Below, piece after piece: positions 6,108 through 38,291 of a DNA stretch of 64,000 bases. The notes below the pieces were generated by a model. The model was not told the DNA's origin. It saw only the letters and a list, made by a program, of their open reading frames with translations, and did not search any database. This DNA comes from Candidatus Limnocylindrales bacterium (GTDB lineage Bacteria; Moduliflexota; Moduliflexia; Moduliflexales; JAUQPW01): positions 124,001 to 188,000 of the forward strand of contig DATMBG010000051.1 in assembly GCA_035559535.1 (NCBI GenBank), in the 5' to 3' direction. The translations under genes and the position numbers were made by a program. Within the stretch, counting starts at the first letter, position 1. Every line of letters begins with the position of its first letter.

Positions 6108-7508
6108 ATGAATCCAAATTTGTGGGAGAACATTCTCAAACATATAGCGGACCGGATTAACAGACAAAGCTTTGAGACATGGTTTAGGCCTGTTCGACCC
6201 CTATCCTTCGAATCAGGGACTATTAAACTGGGAGTGCCTGATCAAAACTTTATAAGCTGGCTCAACGAGCATTACCTGGAAGTCCTACTGGGCGCCATTA
6301 AAGAGGTGATGGGAGAACTCCCGGCAGTTTCCTTTGTGGTCTACAAAGAATCCGATGAGGCCAAAAACTCCGAAGTTTCAAGTTTTCCCTCGTCCAGGGA
6401 AATGCGGGAGCGTCAAATGGAATTGCCCACACCCATAGAAACTCCTTACAGGAAAAACCCTTCTCGGGTCTTTGAAGAGTCCGAAGAGGAGGTGGCCCTT
6501 AATCCCAGATATACGTTTAGTACCTATGTAGTGGGTTCAGGAAGCCGATTTGCCCACGCAGCTTCTTTAGCAGTTGCAGAGCAGATGTCCTCTACCTATA
6601 ACCCCTTATTCATTTACGGGGGAGTAGGATTAGGAAAAACCCATCTCCTTCATGCGATCGGTCATAAAACCTTAGGATTAAGGAAGAAAGTAAGACTCCT
6701 GTATATCTCTTCAGAACGTTTTGTCAATGAATTGATCAATTCCATTCGATATGATTCCCTGCCGAGCTTCCGGGAGAAATATCGTCAGATTGATTTCCTT
6801 CTTATCGATGATATCCAGTTTATAGCCGGGAAAGACAGGACCCAGGAAGAATTCTTCCATACCTTCAACGCCCTCCATAATGCACGGAAACAAATTGTTA
6901 TTACCAGTGATTGTCCGCCGAAACAGATTCCAACTCTGGAGGAGCGGTTGAGATCCCGATTTGAATGGGGGCTCATTGCGGACATTCAACCTCCAGACCT
7001 GGAAACCAAGATCGCCATTCTCCAGAAAAAAGCGGAAGAAAGAAAAGTTCATCTTCCAGATGAAGTAGCTTTATTCATAGCCAGCAAAGTGAAATCCAAC
7101 ATTCGGGAATTGGAGGGCTGTTTGACTAAAGTAGCTGCCTCTGCCGCCTTTAAAGGATGTAGCATCAACCTGGAACTGGCCCAAGAAGTCCTTCAGGATT
7201 TATTCGATACGAAGGTAAAACCTATTACCGTTGACCTTGTCCAGAAGGTCGTAGCCAATTATTACCAAATTCCTCAACAGGAGTTGAAAGCCCAGACCCG
7301 GGTCAAAAATATTGCATTTCCCAGACAGGTAGCCATGTATCTGTGTCGCGAATTAACCCAGTTATCCCTGCCCGAGATTGGAAGAAGTTTCGGTGGTAAA
7401 GACCATACGACGATTCTTCACGCCTGCCGTAAAATAGAGCAAGAGATGAGCAAAAATCCGGAACTGAGGGGATTGATTAATAAACTTAAAAACTTGATTC
7501 AGTCTTAA
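6108..7508 (+). CDS. dnaA: Chromosomal replication initiator DnaA
   Basis: DnaA (466 residues) binds DnaA boxes and opens the origin using ATP. Domain I spans about 1-80, followed by a charged linker to about 130. The AAA+ domain has Walker A GGVGLGKTHLLH (from 171) and Walker B LLIDDIQF (231-238). The C-terminal helix-turn-helix carries the DnaA signature GRSFGGKDHTTILHACRKI (from about 425). Length and all motifs are normal. The downstream neighbour is nuoA rather than dnaN-recF-gyrB, so the classic origin cluster is not conserved. The DnaA boxes immediately upstream suggest autoregulation. Confidence 0.98.
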   Translation: MNPNLWENILKHIADRINRQSFETWFRPVRPLSFESGTIKLGVPDQNFISWLNEHYLEVLLGAIKEVMGELPAVSFVVYKESDEAKNSEVSSFPSSREMRERQMELPTPIETPYRKNPSRVFEESEEEVALNPRYTFSTYVVGSGSRFAHAASLAVAEQMSSTYNPLFIYGGVGLGKTHLLHAIGHKTLGLRKKVRLLYISSERFVNELINSIRYDSLPSFREKYRQIDFLLIDDIQFIAGKDRTQEEFFHTFNALHNARKQIVITSDCPPKQIPTLEERLRSRFEWGLIADIQPPDLETKIAILQKKAEERKVHLPDEVALFIASKVKSNIRELEGCLTKVAASAAFKGCSINLELAQEVLQDLFDTKVKPITVDLVQKVVANYYQIPQQELKAQTRVKNIAFPRQVAMYLCRELTQLSLPEIGRSFGGKDHTTILHACRKIEQEMSKNPELRGLINKLKNLIQS

Positions 7509-32513: not shown

Positions 32514-34382
32514 ATGAGAAAAATAGTTTTGGTGGAAACAAAATCTACATATATTCATGTGTACAGTCATGTTCCTATTCCTCGAGTAGGCTCTGTTCTT
32601 CTGGGAACGATTTTAAGGGATCTGGGATATGAAGTGAAAGTCTATATTGAGGAATTGGGAGAGGTAGATTTTAGAGAATTTTTAGATGCGGATCTGATCG
32701 GAATTTCTACCCTGACTTCTACAGCGCCTCGATCCTATAAATTGGCGAAAATTGCCCGTGAAGCGGGTATTCCCGTAGTATTGGGAGGTACTCATCCCAC
32801 CTTTGAGCCGGATGAATGCCTGGACCATGCAGACTTCCTGATTCGTGGTGAAGGAGAAGAAACCCTGGTAGAACTCATCCGCTGTATAGAAGAAAAAGGC
32901 GACTTCAGTAAAATTCTAGGGTTGTCCTATTGGCAGGATGGTCGAAAGGTGCATAATCCCCCTCGTCCTTTAAAAGAAAATTTAGATGTCTATCCCATTC
33001 CGGATTTTACTCTGGTTGAAGGGAATATAAAACACTCCATTGTTTCCGTCGTAACCGGCCGAGGATGCCCCTTTGATTGCACGTTTTGCTCTGTACCGGC
33101 TTTTAACGGGAAAGGCTACCGGGGACTTTCTATCGATAAGGTTCTAAAGGAAATAGAATTTCACATGAGCCGGTTTAATCTCAGCTTTCTGTTCTTCGCC
33201 GATGATATTTTTAACTATAATAAGAAACGAACCAAAGAGATTTTAAGGGGAATGATCGAAAATAAATTGACGCCCAAGTGGGGGGCCCAGGTTCGCCATG
33301 AAGCATCCCGGGATCCAGAACTGTTAGAGCTCATGAAAAAAGCCAATTGCGACAGGGTTTTTGTCGGATTTGAATCAATCAACCCTAAAACCCTGGAACT
33401 CTTCCATAAGAAAGAGACCGTAGAAAATATAGAAAATGCCATTAAAGCTTTTCATGGCCATGGGATCAAAATCCACGGCATGTTTGTGGTAGGGTCGGAT
33501 GAAGATAGTGTGGAAACTATTCGCGAAACCCGAAGGTTCGTTGAAAAGTGGGATATCGATACCATCCAGTTTATGATTCTTACCCCCATTCCAGGATCTC
33601 ACGATTATATCCAATTTAAGGCCAGCGGCAGGAAGTTTTTGACCCAGGATTGGACACTCTTTGATGGTCACCATGTGGTCCATGTTCCTAAAGGAATGAC
33701 CCCCTATGAGCTTCAAGTTGAAACTTTAACGGCCATGAAAGATTTTTATTCTCTGAAAGCAGCTTTTAAACGGGCGATTCGGGGAGATTTTTATGAGGCC
33801 GGTTTACGTCTCACCGCTCACCGACTTCTCAAGAATTGGTTTAAGATCAATGAAGATTACATTCAAAAGTTGAAAACGGATCTTTATAATGAAGTTAAAG
33901 AACTCGTCGGACAGGAGCCGATTAAGAAAACAGGCGTTATTGCCATTGCCGACATCGCTTCCAGTGAGACGATTAAACGGGCTTTAGAAACTTTCTTCCA
34001 GGAATTGGGCGTTAAAGTTGAAGATTCCATTAAAGGGCTTGGAGAATTGGTCACAGAAAGGCAAGAGCAACTGGCTCAGGGAAAAGAGAAGATCGTCAAG
34101 ATCGTTTATGATTATATGGAAAGCTTAAAAGGGAAAGTAGATTATGTAATTGTGCCTATCGTTGAGGATTTGGAAGAATATCCCTCTAAATGGATTGCCA
34201 GTATTGAGGAAGTCGCAAAGGCTATTAAATCTACTGTAAACTCTCTCCCCCATATCATTCGGGTCCAGGCAGATGTGAAAAGTAAATCCTTACAACAAAC
34301 GCTCACTCAAATAGGATTGATTTTTACCGATGATTTAAATAAAATTAGAAGGGCCTGTAGTAAAGCTTTAACTCCTGCCTGA
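32514..34382 (+). CDS. B12-binding radical SAM protein
   Basis: This protein of about 622 residues belongs to the cobalamin-binding radical SAM group. An N-terminal Rossmann-like B12 domain spans about 1-140 (GSVLLGTILRDLGYEVKVY, ADLIGISTLTSTAPRSY, VVLGGTHPTF). The radical SAM core has the cluster motif C185-x3-C189-x2-C192 (GCPFDCTFC) and continues to about 430. Family members methylate or rearrange unactivated carbons. The last 190 residues are not typical: an alpha-helical, lysine- and glutamate-rich segment with VIAIADIASSETIKRALETF and VDYVIVPIVEDLEEYPSKW, whose role I cannot name. The ATG at 32514 is chosen over a GTG at 32508 because of the AGGGAG spacing. Confidence 0.88.
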   Translation: MRKIVLVETKSTYIHVYSHVPIPRVGSVLLGTILRDLGYEVKVYIEELGEVDFREFLDADLIGISTLTSTAPRSYKLAKIAREAGIPVVLGGTHPTFEPDECLDHADFLIRGEGEETLVELIRCIEEKGDFSKILGLSYWQDGRKVHNPPRPLKENLDVYPIPDFTLVEGNIKHSIVSVVTGRGCPFDCTFCSVPAFNGKGYRGLSIDKVLKEIEFHMSRFNLSFLFFADDIFNYNKKRTKEILRGMIENKLTPKWGAQVRHEASRDPELLELMKKANCDRVFVGFESINPKTLELFHKKETVENIENAIKAFHGHGIKIHGMFVVGSDEDSVETIRETRRFVEKWDIDTIQFMILTPIPGSHDYIQFKASGRKFLTQDWTLFDGHHVVHVPKGMTPYELQVETLTAMKDFYSLKAAFKRAIRGDFYEAGLRLTAHRLLKNWFKINEDYIQKLKTDLYNEVKELVGQEPIKKTGVIAIADIASSETIKRALETFFQELGVKVEDSIKGLGELVTERQEQLAQGKEKIVKIVYDYMESLKGKVDYVIVPIVEDLEEYPSKWIASIEEVAKAIKSTVNSLPHIIRVQADVKSKSLQQTLTQIGLIFTDDLNKIRRACSKALTPA

Positions 34383-34422
34383 GAGCGGTAAAAGTTATTT
34401 CTATAGAATGACCCATTTTAAA

Positions 34423-34449
34423 GTAGGGCGAAATGTCCTTTCGCCCTAC
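34423..34449. repeat. GTAGGGCGAAA hairpin
   Basis: GTAGGGCGAAA (34423-34433) and TTTCGCCCTAC (34439-34449) are perfect 11-base complements around a five-base loop. It lies between the convergent radical SAM and membrane-protein genes. The GTAGGG...CCCTAC ends match the 28-bp palindrome family found further along, so it may be a diverged member. Confidence 0.7.
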
Positions 34450-34513
34450 AGCAGGGATTGCCCGGTTTTGTGTTTCTACCCCTGTTTGGAACTTTTGAGA
34501 CCGTTTCCCTGGA

Positions 34514-35446
34514 CTATTTAACTTCCGGTGCGAAGTGGGTATGGTAGAAAAAAATAAATAGGGCAAAAATAGGACCTGCAAAGAAAAATGGGGCCAGGGC
34601 AGAAGAAAGACTCGCCTGTATATTTGCTGCACGAACCCCGTCAAACCTGAAAACTAAGAACAAAAATCTACCAACCGTCCATGCTATCTTCTCCCGCAAG
34701 AAGGTTCCTATTTTAAGAAATATTAAGAGTATTGCTGTAAAAATAGGGTAAAAGAGGAACAACAAAGGGAATTTATTTAAGATATCCGGCAAGGTATCCC
34801 GGGTATAAAACCCCATCATAATAGGCACAGAGCCGAAAAAGGTTAGGATATGAAGATCATCAAAGAAATTTCCCAGTTTAGGTATTAAAGCTAGTAGATA
34901 GACGACCATCATCACAAAGGTTGCACCCGCCAAAGAGGTCAAAAGATAATTATCGGATAATTCGAAGGTGGTTCTCTCAGAAGGGTTAATAACAGTAGGA
35001 ATGACAAAAAAAAGATAAACAGACAGCAAGAGGCTATACAAGGGAAAGTTTATAAGAAAGTTTTTAAGTAAGGAAAGGATCCCCAGGGTCATCTTTTTGA
35101 ATAAACCGGGTGGGGGAGGGGATGGGGGAGAAAATCCCGATGGGGGTAAGGGTGAGGCCTGCAAAGGGGCCGGTAAAGGTTTTGGAGGTCCTGGTTGAGG
35201 ATTCGGAACTGAAGAGGGGGGAATCTGGGAAGGTGGAGCCGATACAGGCTGGGGGTTCGGAGTCGAAGGTAGAGGGGCAGGTGAGTTAACAGGAGGAGGT
35301 TTTACCACCGGCTTTGCATAGGGTGGTACCTTCTTCCGCCAAATCGGAACCCGGTACATTAAAACAGAAAAGACCAGGGTAGTCAGAAATACGCGCCACT
35401 CCATGAGGGCAAAAAGTCCTTGTAAGAGAGCTTCTAACTCGCTCAT
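34514..35446 (-). CDS. Proline-rich membrane protein, function unknown
   Basis: This 310-residue protein has one hydrophobic segment near the N-terminus (about 15-35) and then a strikingly proline-rich linker (about 40-113, PxP-type repeats). Five or so further transmembrane segments follow (about 128-150, 165-190, 200-213, 223-245 and 285-303). I do not recognise the family; the C-terminal part is reminiscent of Yip1-type membrane domains. The linker may span the periplasm or tether a partner. The start follows a weak ribosome site. Confidence 0.6.
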   Translation of the reverse strand: MSELEALLQGLFALMEWRVFLTTLVFSVLMYRVPIWRKKVPPYAKPVVKPPPVNSPAPLPSTPNPQPVSAPPSQIPPSSVPNPQPGPPKPLPAPLQASPLPPSGFSPPSPPPPGLFKKMTLGILSLLKNFLINFPLYSLLLSVYLFFVIPTVINPSERTTFELSDNYLLTSLAGATFVMMVVYLLALIPKLGNFFDDLHILTFFGSVPIMMGFYTRDTLPDILNKFPLLFLFYPIFTAILLIFLKIGTFLREKIAWTVGRFLFLVFRFDGVRAANIQASLSSALAPFFFAGPIFALFIFFYHTHFAPEVK

Positions 35447-35590
35447 AACAGTGAGTAGAGTAAAGACTTTTTACCAATTGTCAAGCTGTATTTATAAGAT
35501 AAAAACCGGAAAGGAAAGAAGAAAGAGAGAATAAGAGGGGAAAAACCCCGCAAGGACAGGGATCCACAGACTTTCCTATCATTAAAAGGC

Positions 35591-35622
35591 AAAGGAGCCG
35601 GTAAAGTACTCCCGGCTCCTTT
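35591..35622 (-). terminator. Stem-loop after the RRM gene
   Basis: AAAGGAGCCGG (35591-35601) and CCGGCTCCTTT (35612-35622) pair perfectly over 11 bases. The hairpin lies about 80 bases beyond the stop of the minus-strand RRM gene and before the next minus-strand gene. On the plus strand a T-rich run follows (ATATAATTTTTT), and on the minus strand a weaker one does, so it may act in both directions. Confidence 0.6.
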
Positions 35623-35703
35623 ATATAATTTTTTAACTTTTTCTCGGGGTCCGTTGTAGATGCTTGAGCAGCCTCACCTCACAAACTTCAAATAATAATT
35701 TAA

Positions 35704-36051
35704 TTATTCCATATCTTCCTCGTACTGAACTCTCTTGGGCTTGGAACCTCCTCGTTTTCCTGCGCCGCTTCCCTTAAAATCACGACTTTTATAATTGTTG
35801 GTGCGCTTTGGTTTTGCTTTATCTACCACCATTTCTCGATCTTTAAAACTGTATCCGTTAAACATATTGATCGCATTTTGCGCCTCTTCTTCAGAGGCCA
35901 TTTCAACAAATCCAAACCCTTTAGAACGACCTGACGTCGCATCGGTAATAATTCTTACAGATTCAACGGTTCCTGCCTGTCCAAAAAGTCGATTTAAATC
36001 TTCTTCACTGGTTTGATAAGATAAATTTCCTACATAAAGTTTACTTAACAT
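35704..36051 (-). CDS. RRM-domain RNA-binding protein
   Basis: This 115-residue protein has a single RNA-recognition motif. RNP2 is LYVGNL (5-10) and RNP1 is KGFGFVEM (about 44-51), with the conserved beta-alpha order around them. The tail (about 84-115) is rich in lysine, arginine and glycine. Bacterial proteins of this type bind single-stranded RNA and are often cold-induced. It is a monocistronic gene with a long leader that contains a terminator-like hairpin directly before the ribosome site (GAGAGG), which points to control by premature termination. Confidence 0.93.
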   Translation of the reverse strand: MLSKLYVGNLSYQTSEEDLNRLFGQAGTVESVRIITDATSGRSKGFGFVEMASEEEAQNAINMFNGYSFKDREMVVDKAKPKRTNNYKSRDFKGSGAGKRGGSKPKRVQYEEDME

Positions 36052-36421
36052 TTTTCACACCTCTCTTAAAAGAAAAAACCCTCAAAGCCCTTAGAAAGTC
36101 TTTGAGGGTTTACAAACGAAACGATCAAAAACGATCCAGAAACTTTGGGTGCTGCTTTGTCTACAATGTACCTTTATGTTTGGGAGATTAAAAATCTCCA
36201 CATTTTGGATACTTTCGACTAGGCAGGTACTTATATTGTCAACTACAATCGCAATATAACCCGGACTCTATAGGGTGTCAAGATGATATTTTAAATTTTC
36301 CGTAAAAATTATACCCACCCCTTGTAAAAATACGGTATCCAGGGTAAGGACCATCTTCCCACAAGGTCGACCTTCAACCGAATAGCCCCTTTGTTAGATC
36401 CCACCTCAACACGGAAAAGTA
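36052..36421 (-). promoter_or_regulatory. Long leader of the RRM gene
   Basis: These 370 bases between the RRM gene and the lipoprotein gene (both minus strand) hold no gene. The part nearest the RRM start carries the hairpin at 36076-36111. A TTGACA is present on the minus strand near 36243, but no good -10 box lies at the right spacing, so the promoter is not located. Confidence 0.45.
36076..36111 (-). promoter_or_regulatory. Attenuator-like hairpin in the RRM leader
   Basis: Read on the minus strand, AAACCCTCAAAG (36111-36100) pairs perfectly with CTTTGAGGGTTT (36087-36076) around a 12-base loop. A run of T follows at once (TTTTTT ending at 36073), and then the GAGAGG ribosome site and ATG at 36051. 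This is the form of an intrinsic terminator placed inside a 5' leader. Confidence 0.65.
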
Positions 36422-36838
36422 TTAGTAAAGCTTGTCGATAAGAATATCCACTTTCTGATCGCCTACTTTAACCGGGTTACCCTTCCAACTCCCTTCTAAA
36501 TCACCGGGTTGTGGAGGACCGGCCTGACCATCCTTATCAATTCGGGCGATCACCGTAACTTCACCTGTAAACTCAACCCCCGGTATCATGACATCTTCCG
36601 GACTGAGCCAATATTTAAGCGGAAACTCTGGATTGACTATTTTTTGAACGGCCAGGGGAGGACCTCCTTCCGGTCGCCGGGCTATAATAAATAAACGATC
36701 ATTACGACCTACTTTGGCAGCGAGGGAAGGGTCGATATAAATGGTTCCAGATAAAGTAAGTTTTTTATTCTGTCCTCCCTCTCCCTGACTGCAGGAAACT
36801 AAAAATAAAACGACTAAAACGAAAAAAAGGTTTTTCAT
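36422..36838 (-). CDS. Lipoprotein with CcmI/CycH C-terminal-like domain
   Basis: This 138-residue protein has a short signal and a lipobox ending at C16 (LFLVSC). The remainder reads LSGTIYIDPSLAAKVGRNDRLFIIARRPEGGPPLAVQKI, then an EFTGEVTVIARIDKDGQAGPPQPGDLEG stretch. This closely follows the C-terminal domain of the cytochrome c maturation protein CcmI (CycH), where that domain binds apocytochrome. Here it stands alone on a lipid anchor, with no ccm gene nearby. It lies seven bases behind the CoxE-like gene on the same strand, so it may belong to that unit. Confidence 0.75.
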   Translation of the reverse strand: MKNLFFVLVVLFLVSCSQGEGGQNKKLTLSGTIYIDPSLAAKVGRNDRLFIIARRPEGGPPLAVQKIVNPEFPLKYWLSPEDVMIPGVEFTGEVTVIARIDKDGQAGPPQPGDLEGSWKGNPVKVGDQKVDILIDKLY

Positions 36839-36845
36839 AGGGTTT

Positions 36846-38291
36846 TTACAGAACCAGGGTATCTATAACTGCCGCAAGTTGTTTGATATTTCGGCACTCG
36901 ACGACACTATCGCAATAGGGTTCGTAGTGGCCCATGATGCTATCTCCAAAGTTCCAACTCCAACTAGATTCCGGATTTAACCAGATGATTCGTTTAGCCT
37001 GTGCTCTGATCTCCTTCAAAGCCCCTTCTCGGGGATGGTATTGGTTATTGCGAGCATCTCCCATGATAATAACCGTCGTTTTACTGGTGACGGCGGACAG
37101 GTAGTTATCACAGAAAGCTGAAAAGGCACTTCCAAAATCACTCAGATGATTGTAGGCAATTCCCATTTGGGTCATCGCCCGGGTAATTGCCTCTTCCAGG
37201 GGGTAAGTTTTAAAAAGATCTGTGACTTCCGCAATTTCATCGACGAAAATAAAACTTCGAACCCTGGAAAACTGGTCTTGAAGGCTATAAAGGAATTGTA
37301 ACATAAACCGCGAGGCATTTCGAACCGAGTTGGAAACATCACAGAGGGTTACAATCTGGGGTTTACGTTTTTTCTTTTCTTTAAAGGATAAATCCAGGGG
37401 AATCCCTCCGTATTTCAGATTTTTTCTAAAGATGCCTTTTACATTAAGCCTGCTTCTTCGGGCTTTTTTCTGACGAATGGCTTGAAGCTCCTTCAACCGT
37501 TGGGCCAGTTGGGCAACCATCCCTTTCATGGCCTCTACCTCTCGTTCGGTATACTGTAAGAGGTTTTTATCCATCAAAGCTTCTTCCGCCAATTTCTGCC
37601 TAAATCTAAAATCCTTTTTCTCGAACTCCTGCCGTACATACTGTCGGATCGTGTTTTTGAGAAGATTCACCCGATAATTGAGAAGTTTTTTTGTTTGGTT
37701 GAGATTACGACCATCCAGACCTTTTTGGGCCAGGATCTTTAAAAGAAGATTGAGATCTGTTTCGATTTCCCTCCAGTCAAAAGATTCCATAATTTTCTGG
37801 GTATAGTAATTCACCTGGAGAAAATAACTCATGTTTTGAATCCCGACTTCCTGTCCTTTCGCTTTGATCCATCGATGTAATTGCCCTCCGTTACCTCCCA
37901 GAATATGCCTGGATAAGGCCGTTATGTTAGTACTTGCTTCTTCTAAAGCCAGGTCAATCTTTTCTGCAAGGGTATTATAATCCAGGAGGTTTTCTTCTAG
38001 GGGGTTATGGGGGGCCATCAGGGAATTTTTTTCTGTAGGGGCGTAAGGCCTTACGCCCGTACTATTTTTTTTATCTTCAAAGTTAAAATGAAGATCGAAA
38101 AGGTTTTGAAAGGTGGGAATGTCGGCAACACGCTTGATCAAGGTCGTCTGAAGGGTCATGCGGAATATCTCTTTTTCTTCCAAAGGGATATGGCTCAGAG
38201 AGTGAAGGCAATCTATCTCCTCTGAAGGGGTTACACGAATATTGGATTTTCGAAGGGCCTGGACAAATTCTAAAATTTTTTCTTCCATCAA
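36846..38291 (-). CDS. VWA domain protein, CoxE-like
   Basis: This 481-residue protein has a long helical N-terminal part and a von Willebrand A domain in the last third. The metal-binding MIDAS motif D-x-S-x-S is DVSNS from residue 318, with later pieces SDFGSAF and IIMGDARNN. CoxE-type proteins partner a MoxR-type AAA+ ATPase to insert metals into or mature enzymes such as CO dehydrogenase. The ATPase is the gene just upstream, overlapping by four bases. Residues 77-86 (STGVRPYAPT) are encoded by a palindromic repeat inserted in frame. No target oxidoreductase lies adjacent. Confidence 0.88.
   Translation of the reverse strand: MMEEKILEFVQALRKSNIRVTPSEEIDCLHSLSHIPLEEKEIFRMTLQTTLIKRVADIPTFQNLFDLHFNFEDKKNSTGVRPYAPTEKNSLMAPHNPLEENLLDYNTLAEKIDLALEEASTNITALSRHILGGNGGQLHRWIKAKGQEVGIQNMSYFLQVNYYTQKIMESFDWREIETDLNLLLKILAQKGLDGRNLNQTKKLLNYRVNLLKNTIRQYVRQEFEKKDFRFRQKLAEEALMDKNLLQYTEREVEAMKGMVAQLAQRLKELQAIRQKKARRSRLNVKGIFRKNLKYGGIPLDLSFKEKKKRKPQIVTLCDVSNSVRNASRFMLQFLYSLQDQFSRVRSFIFVDEIAEVTDLFKTYPLEEAITRAMTQMGIAYNHLSDFGSAFSAFCDNYLSAVTSKTTVIIMGDARNNQYHPREGALKEIRAQAKRIIWLNPESSWSWNFGDSIMGHYEPYCDSVVECRNIKQLAAVIDTLVL
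38035..38062. repeat. 28-bp palindrome inside the CoxE-like gene
   Basis: This copy has the form GTAGGGGCGTAAGG (38035-38048) followed by CCTTACGCCCGTAC (38049-38062), with one mismatch between halves. It is read in frame as ten residues of the VWA protein. It shares the GTA...GGCC...TAC framework with five other copies in the window. Confidence 0.85.

Follow-up and report, generated by a model that had tools for sequence, protein, structure and literature searches.

A candidate transcription attenuator with a conserved antiterminator in the leaders of RRM protein genes and a CarD-like gene

An RRM protein gene in the window, the whole stretch of 64,000 nucleotides analysed here, is preceded by a terminator hairpin, which raises the question of whether this hairpin decides if the gene is read and, if so, what works the switch. 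The gene, RRM1, does encode the RRM protein of the original prediction, with 115 aa and a PF00076 match of 85.2 bits (E = 2.8e-24), and it carries the RNP motifs LYVGNL and KGFGFVEM. The protein is 100% identical in the sister genome. We denote the genome of the window G000 and the sister genome G001, and copies of the element are named accordingly, RRM1_G1 being that of RRM1 in G001. On the minus strand, AAACCCTCAAAG at 36111-36100 is fully complementary to CTTTGAGGGTTT at 36087-36076 across a 12-nt loop, and the stem is followed in order by TTTCTTTT, AGAGAGG and the ATG at 36051 (start codon 36051-36049). The perfect 12-bp stem proposed earlier is present, whereas the count of six T after it does not hold, since three of these sit inside the stem; the terminator can be counted either as a 12-bp stem with TTTCTTTT or as a 9-bp stem with TTTTTTC. 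The spacer between stem and start codon measures 24 nt, in agreement with the proposed 25 bases or so. A simple terminator scan overlooked this hairpin (loop limit 8; actual loop 12 nt). The core pattern CCCTCAAAG-N6-16-CTTTGAGGG occurs once in the 64 kb and in none of 100 dinucleotide shuffles.

The top minus-strand promoter match in 34000-38000 is TTGACA-17-TATATT at 36281-36253, with 11 of 12 positions of a sigma-70-like consensus. The predicted RNA start near 36246 gives a leader of about 195 nt, promoters and RNA start sites being placed throughout by consensus alone. The same scan of 34000-38000 found no promoter between the hairpin and the start codon; a promoter there had been named as what would refute attenuation. 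Taken together, leader and first codons (212 nt) have a folding z of -3.5. The features of the locus are as follows.

35704-36051, minus strand: RRM1 gene, 115 aa; PF00076, 85.2 bits; identical protein in G001
36253-36281, minus strand: predicted promoter TTGACA-17-TATATT, 11/12 consensus; 37 of 39 bases of 36247-36285 kept in G001
36147-36246, minus strand: 5′ leader domain with hairpin; 95 of 100 bases the same in G001; without counterpart in the RRM2 and CarD leaders
36119-36138, minus strand: predicted antiterminator 5′ strand, in the parts 36138-36135, 36132-36125 (GUUUUUGA) and 36122-36119; same-column pairing in the other six copies
36123-36136, minus strand: GATCGTTTTTGATC (GATC) hairpin, possible anti-antiterminator; 5 of 5 pairs here
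36092-36111, minus strand: predicted antiterminator 3′ strand, in the parts 36111-36108, 36105-36098 and 36095-36092; overlaps the terminator 5′ arm and loop
36076-36111, minus strand: intrinsic terminator hairpin with its arms at 36111-36100 and 36087-36076; all 12 pairs present in six copies and 11 of them in G090
36068-36075, minus strand: U-tract TTTCTTTT, read from the sequence
36060-36066, minus strand: Shine-Dalgarno-like AGAGAGG, directly 3′ of the terminator; 18 of 18 bases of 36052-36069 conserved

In the 5′ leader domain, the hairpin at 36183-36199 keeps its stem GGAGATT/AATCTCC when compared with locus L033, and the loop is TTT in one genome and AAA in the other.

The first lead to further copies was a DNA search in which a similar stretch turned up close to the genome's second RRM gene. 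On reading the sequence, we found the same arrangement before this gene, RRM2, and, facing RRM2, before a CarD-like gene, whose product matches PF02559 with 28.2 bits (cut-off 23) and CarD_C with 21.4 bits, under the cut-off of 23.1. An element of about 75 nt thus precedes three genes in both G000 and G001. With at most one mismatch, the pattern GATCRTTTTTGATCG has three sites in each of the two genomes, all in the RRM1, RRM2 and CarD-like leaders. The GATC-motif matches in G002 (two) and G003 (nine) are without a terminator, and the element is present in two of the four genomes examined of the window's own phylum. The intrinsic terminator lies between the gene's own promoter and its start codon not only in RRM1 but also in CarD_G0, where the promoter matches 10 of 12 consensus positions, and in the G090 leader described below; for RRM2 the scan called no promoter on the minus strand, and only a TTGACA was seen by eye. 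The 5′ parts differ among the leaders and are nearly gone in CarD_G1, whose leader has 104 nt. Piece by piece, the stretch from promoter to start codon shows 88-100% identity between G000 and G001, compared with 79% just upstream of the promoter (108/136) and 84% in the 3′ intergenic stretch; coding identity is 97% for RRM and 89-93% for the neighbouring genes. In the RRM1 element, an A-to-G and a T-to-C change between the two genomes convert an A-U pair to G-C and keep the outer antiterminator helix. Separately, several copies of intergenic inverted repeats rich in CCCCCTGG or AGGGGG were seen by eye at L042 3780-3860 and 6040-6150 and at L043 around 6300-6560; these look like a dispersed repeat of the genus.

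The attenuator proposed at first gains support from an alternative pairing that is conserved in all seven copies, comprising the six genus leaders and that of G090. In each, a conserved strand further upstream (UUUUUGAUCG in the genus) offers the terminator 5′ arm and loop another partner, and their pairing would give three helices of 4-7, 7-8 and 4-7 bp with small internal loops between them. The outer helix uses the terminator loop, the central U-rich helix the loop-proximal half of the 5′ arm and the inner helix its distal half. Loop pairing in the outer helix would explain why the terminator loop is conserved between RRM2 and CarD. The 2 × 2 internal loop between the central and inner helices is UC/CC in five of the six genus copies, UC/CU in the sixth and UU/CU in G090. 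When the leaders were folded up to the base before the terminator 3′ arm, the mean pairing of the 5′ arm was 0.80-0.84 in all seven copies. Shuffling the upstream part alone, 300 times per leader, matched this value 0, 2, 2, 1, 1 and 5 times in the six leaders of the genus. Among 114 control terminators of at least 10 bp in 689 kb of other loci, four reach 0.80 and one of these is the G090 element, which is the only one to do so among the 26 with a loop of at least 9. The own-genome control is small, with 13 terminators from a finder that missed CarD_G1; six are at 0.80 or above, five being the element and one the repeat at L042 3780-3804.

Covariation in the seven-row alignment supports the antiterminator as a structure that excludes the terminator. 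Across all seven rows, 13 of the 17 antiterminator pairs are predicted in the same columns, and 95.0% of cells pair. Four pairs show two-sided change (6-60, 9-57, 12-54 and 23-43; 8 of 500 shuffles as high), as do ten cells (0 of 500), and the covariation score was equalled by 0 of 500 shuffles; the alignment has seven rows from three genomes of two lineages and the antiterminator was read from these same rows, so the shuffle counts are not probabilities. Controls with slid partners gave at most two two-sided pairs or cells. The number of further pair types in the antiterminator is not special (417 of 500 shuffles as high). In the combined terminator and GATC hairpin, two pairs (235 of 500 as high) and five cells (1 of 500) change on both sides, and every one of these belongs to the terminator. 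Column 43, whose partner is 76 in the terminator and 23 in the antiterminator, varies together with each of them. Judged from sequence and computed folds, the element is very probably a transcription attenuator with an antiterminator.

Regarding the balance between the two forms, the summed listed pairs at 37 °C make the terminator the stabler form, by 0.1 kcal/mol in RRM1_G1 and by 4-13 kcal/mol in the others. RRM1_G1 is also the only copy in which the minimum-energy fold of the whole leader is the antiterminator form. The antiterminator of RRM2_G1 is weaker, with a central-helix probability of 0.51 at 37 °C. The GATCGTTTTTGATC hairpin pairs in 91.4% of cells over the seven rows with no two-sided change, its equilibrium probability is about 0.2 in RRM1_G1 and RRM2_G1, and G090 keeps three of its five pairs. 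It is a possible anti-antiterminator, with support limited to the genus.

To follow the element beyond the genus, we scanned 385 genomes with R1, a covariance model of the six genus copies, and used a second model, R2, for follow-up scans. The best R1 match outside the genus (E = 4.1e-5 per genome) is in G090, from another phylum, where it immediately precedes the RRM gene and ends 24 nt before the ATG. The G090 leader has a 12/12 promoter, and its nearest long upstream reading frame is divergent. Folded short of the 3′ arm, it takes the same three-helix form with a 5′-arm pairing of 0.84, and it retains 14 of 17 antiterminator pairs and 11 of 12 terminator pairs. The R1 matches were confined to six of the 385 genomes (G000, G001, G090, G199, G224 and G330); those in G199, G224 and G330 were rejected as members, as they stand at gene ends without the motif, and so was a fourth match in G000 (C20, by eye after a ClpB-like gene) for the same reason.

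The follow-up scans with R2 added no further member. Over 385 relatives of G090, largely the sample of R1, three matches were obtained, in G090, G001 and G313, the last rejected because it falls within a GTPase-like reading frame on the opposite strand. Run on two genomes from the phylum of G090, R2 matched G090 itself and a gene-end site in G230. The 95 genomes of G088's phylum gave two weak matches, in G466 and G396; that in G466 (L187 1577-1501, 31.1 bits) has no RRM frame by eye and was rejected. The match in G396 (L188 1501-1568, E = 9.5e-4) falls at a terminator shortly before an FKBP-type peptidyl-prolyl isomerase-like gene, and was absent from the other six genomes of its genus in the same search. 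Of 80 RRM loci at large (a few of them incomplete), a terminator lies no more than 120 nt from the start in five, that of the sister genome among them, and R2 over these 80 loci gave the sister genome as the sole RRM-leader match. In 54 further sources, R2 found no other RRM leader at E < 0.01. L005 (E = 0.29), L159 (0.32) and L168 (1.0) have weak R2 matches upstream of their RRM genes; that in L005 was discarded as a terminator that follows an apparent 5S gene ahead of the RRM promoter (by eye), and a match in L011 (22.6 bits) was discarded because it is on the opposite strand, upstream of the gene. Rfam, whose leader families include PyrR, trpB, bglG and rnk, gave no match at gathering in the window, L042, L043, L177 or L071.

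RRM leaders of a third phylum, that of G056, carry a different but related-looking arrangement. R2 gave no match at 0.001 in nine genomes of this phylum, and weak matches upstream of both G056 RRM genes. These nine genomes hold 13 RRM loci, of which 11 leaders could be placed, and eight of the 11 have a terminator (L189, L190, L191, L193, L194, L195, L200 and L201), several of them from a shared genus and hence not independent. The stems are 7-11 bp with CUCAAAG/CUUUGAG in seven and CUUGAAG/CUUUAAG in L195, and they lie 30-35 nt or more before the ATG. All eight have AUGGG in the loop and CCCAU just after the U-tract, and loop and downstream strand could pair. Pairing of the 5′ arm with upstream RNA is inconsistent (0.16-0.88), so we do not count these leaders as members, and the antiterminator is not general to RRM leader terminators, given that the stem core occurs here without it. 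That RRM genes of three phyla are preceded by one stem core suggests recognition of the leader by a shared factor, for which an RRM protein is the simplest candidate; this strengthens the reading of these proteins as the ligand, convergence or chance similarity of short stems being the alternative. L071 is identical to L200 over 150 bases.

Other RRM leaders show arrangements of their own. Those of Patescibacteria and similar genomes share GTAAG near the 5′ end and a GTCGRCTTAC-like sequence before the start, which could pair (about 140 bases before the start in L070, L073, L075, L076, L077, L084, L092, L099, L102, L104, L113 and L123), possibly another RRM leader family. L107, L120 and L127, from differently labelled bacteria, share CCCGGGAATTAGCCCGGGTTTTCTG-like hairpins and, ahead of the start, an GGAGGGCAA-like sequence (about 150 bases before the RRM start).

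How the switch might work can be laid out as a sequence of steps. RNA polymerase would start about 195 nt before RRM1, and the emerging terminator 5′ arm and loop would pair with the upstream U-rich strand into the three-helix antiterminator, blocking nucleation of the terminator so that the gene is read. If the U-rich strand were held away, the 12-bp terminator would form and transcription would stop 24 nt before the start codon. By default, read-through is likely, since the antiterminator would be fully formed by the time the 3′ arm is made and would overlie the terminator nucleation site; with the terminator stabler at 37 °C by the listed pairs, read-through would depend on kinetics. RRM proteins bind short stretches of single-stranded RNA, and theirs is the one gene class that has the element in all three genomes, so feedback by these proteins is the simplest reading. 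They might promote termination by binding the UUUUUGAUCG single strand, that strand's small hairpin or the CUCAAAG stem, although to our knowledge no RRM binding motif has been reported for the window's lineage. The outcome, with the sign of control as we infer it, would be negative feedback on both RRM genes and the CarD-like gene. We regard the case for RRM proteins as the ligand as evenly poised. As the best explanation overall, an attenuator with RRM-protein negative feedback on RRM1, RRM2 and the CarD-like gene is somewhat favoured. A common switch probably sets the level of the two RRM genes and the CarD-like gene together, and the CarD-like gene would be a co-regulated target if RRM feedback holds.

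The strongest rival is temperature, which may also act jointly with RRM feedback. Here the switch would need no protein: the antiterminator, rich in A-U and G-U pairs, would melt at about the temperature at which a thermophile grows, the G-C-cored terminator would persist, and cooling would turn the genes on. Cyanobacterial work has reportedly addressed the rbpA1 leader and cold. Computed before the 3′ arm, central-helix occupancy in six of the seven copies is 0.99-1.00 at 37 °C and drops to 0.46-0.76 at 70 °C, and the terminator is still worth -4.1 to -10.1 kcal/mol at 70 °C; however, this is equilibrium folding with parameters extrapolated far from 37 °C, RRM2_G1 is half open already at 37 °C (0.51), and every RNA helix melts with heat to a degree. 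A rough guess from the amino-acid composition of 31 window ORFs puts growth at about 65 °C. By its name, the sister genome bin JZ-2.bins.100.201901 (RRM1 contig JAUQPW010000006.1) fits the JZ (Jinze) hot-spring series, and the Jinze spring was sampled at 75 °C according to the available part of one report (PMC7819960), which does not name this bin. In a Synechocystis table, from the portion of the paper at hand (PMC6789579), the RRM gene rbpA1 is marked as cold-responsive. Taken together, a cold switch free of protein is conceivable but rather doubtful. Equally tentative is a joint scheme in which RRM proteins, as counterparts of eukaryotic cold-inducible RRM proteins, would work through a shared antiterminator whose melting is tuned to about the growth temperature; cooling would thereby switch on a regulon including a CarD-like RNA-polymerase-binding factor; the CUCAAAG-stem terminators elsewhere would be relatives.

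It is unlikely that the attenuator is run by another factor, such as a cold-shock-domain (CSD) protein, NusA/NusG or a small molecule bound in the antiterminator internal loops. The genome has five CSD matches, a finding for which we dropped the idea that RRM replaces CspA, and Csp proteins alter termination in E. coli, as the accessible text of PMC9765468 has it; the UC/CC internal loop kept in five of six genus copies is likewise in its favour. However, the element tracks RRM genes in all three genomes, and the whole-genome scans place no element before any other gene. None of eight CSD loci examined, 4 of the 8 G000/G001 matches included, was convincing (best E = 0.074).

A stand-alone small RNA of about 175 nt, made from the promoter and terminator, is improbable: the leader fold (z -3.5) and the 95 of 100 conserved bases of the 5′ domain would fit it, but the 5′ parts vary among leaders and nearly vanish in CarD_G1, leaving only the gene-adjacent switch in common. 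More improbable still, the hairpin would simply end transcription of the same-strand gene upstream (36422-36838), or be a constitutive terminator without regulation. That neighbour is 310 nt away, yet a promoter lies between it and the hairpin, the nearest long upstream frame of G090 is divergent, and the antiterminator is conserved. Leader-peptide attenuation is hardly credible, as the short TTG frames that overlap the element in the RRM1 and CarD leaders have no counterpart conserved across the seven leaders.

Among known systems, the closest in design are TRAP/trp, PyrR/pyr and L10/rplJL, which likewise have a leader terminator, a competing antiterminator and possible feedback by an encoded RNA-binding protein. 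Sequence and structure are unrelated, however, the PyrR model scoring 20.3 bits against a gathering cut-off of 54 in a permissive Rfam scan of 36030-36420, whose six matches were all sub-threshold (best mir-186, 21.5 of 70); moreover, the ligand here would be an RRM protein and the targets include a CarD-like gene. Targets of ANTAR-type antitermination have two small stems with A1/G4 hexaloops, and we rejected this type because the loop here is GUUUUU or AUUUUU without G4 and the terminator loop of the genus has 12-14 nt. The Bacteroides protein RbpB is alike, being an RRM protein whose own mRNA, rbpB, contains an RbpB binding site, with autoregulation possible, but differs in that the part of the source available describes no leader terminator (PMC11697453); the RbpB motif GUAGGAUA, as cited in the portion of PMC12119571 at hand, is absent from the element. 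In the Csp family, small RNA-binding proteins alter intrinsic termination in a similar manner, E. coli CspD weakening terminators, but these have a cold-shock-domain fold and, in the accessible text, no dedicated switch element (PMC9765468). In B. subtilis, operons of RNA-binding proteins have attenuators in 14% versus about 5%, as stated in the available part of PMC2965389; these predictions concern RNA-binding-protein genes in general, and the terms RRM and cold shock are absent from that paper. In mycobacteria, according to PMC8820732, CarD is an RNA-polymerase-binding protein whose own control runs through antisense RNA and Clp, a different route.

Our search of CC-licensed full text found no description of a bacterial RRM gene with an attenuator. 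RRM proteins are widespread in bacteria. The compact two-state element makes RRM autoregulation and cold control directly testable in vitro. If true, the proposed regulation would link RNA-binding proteins to a factor of the RNA-polymerase-binding family, the CarD-like protein.
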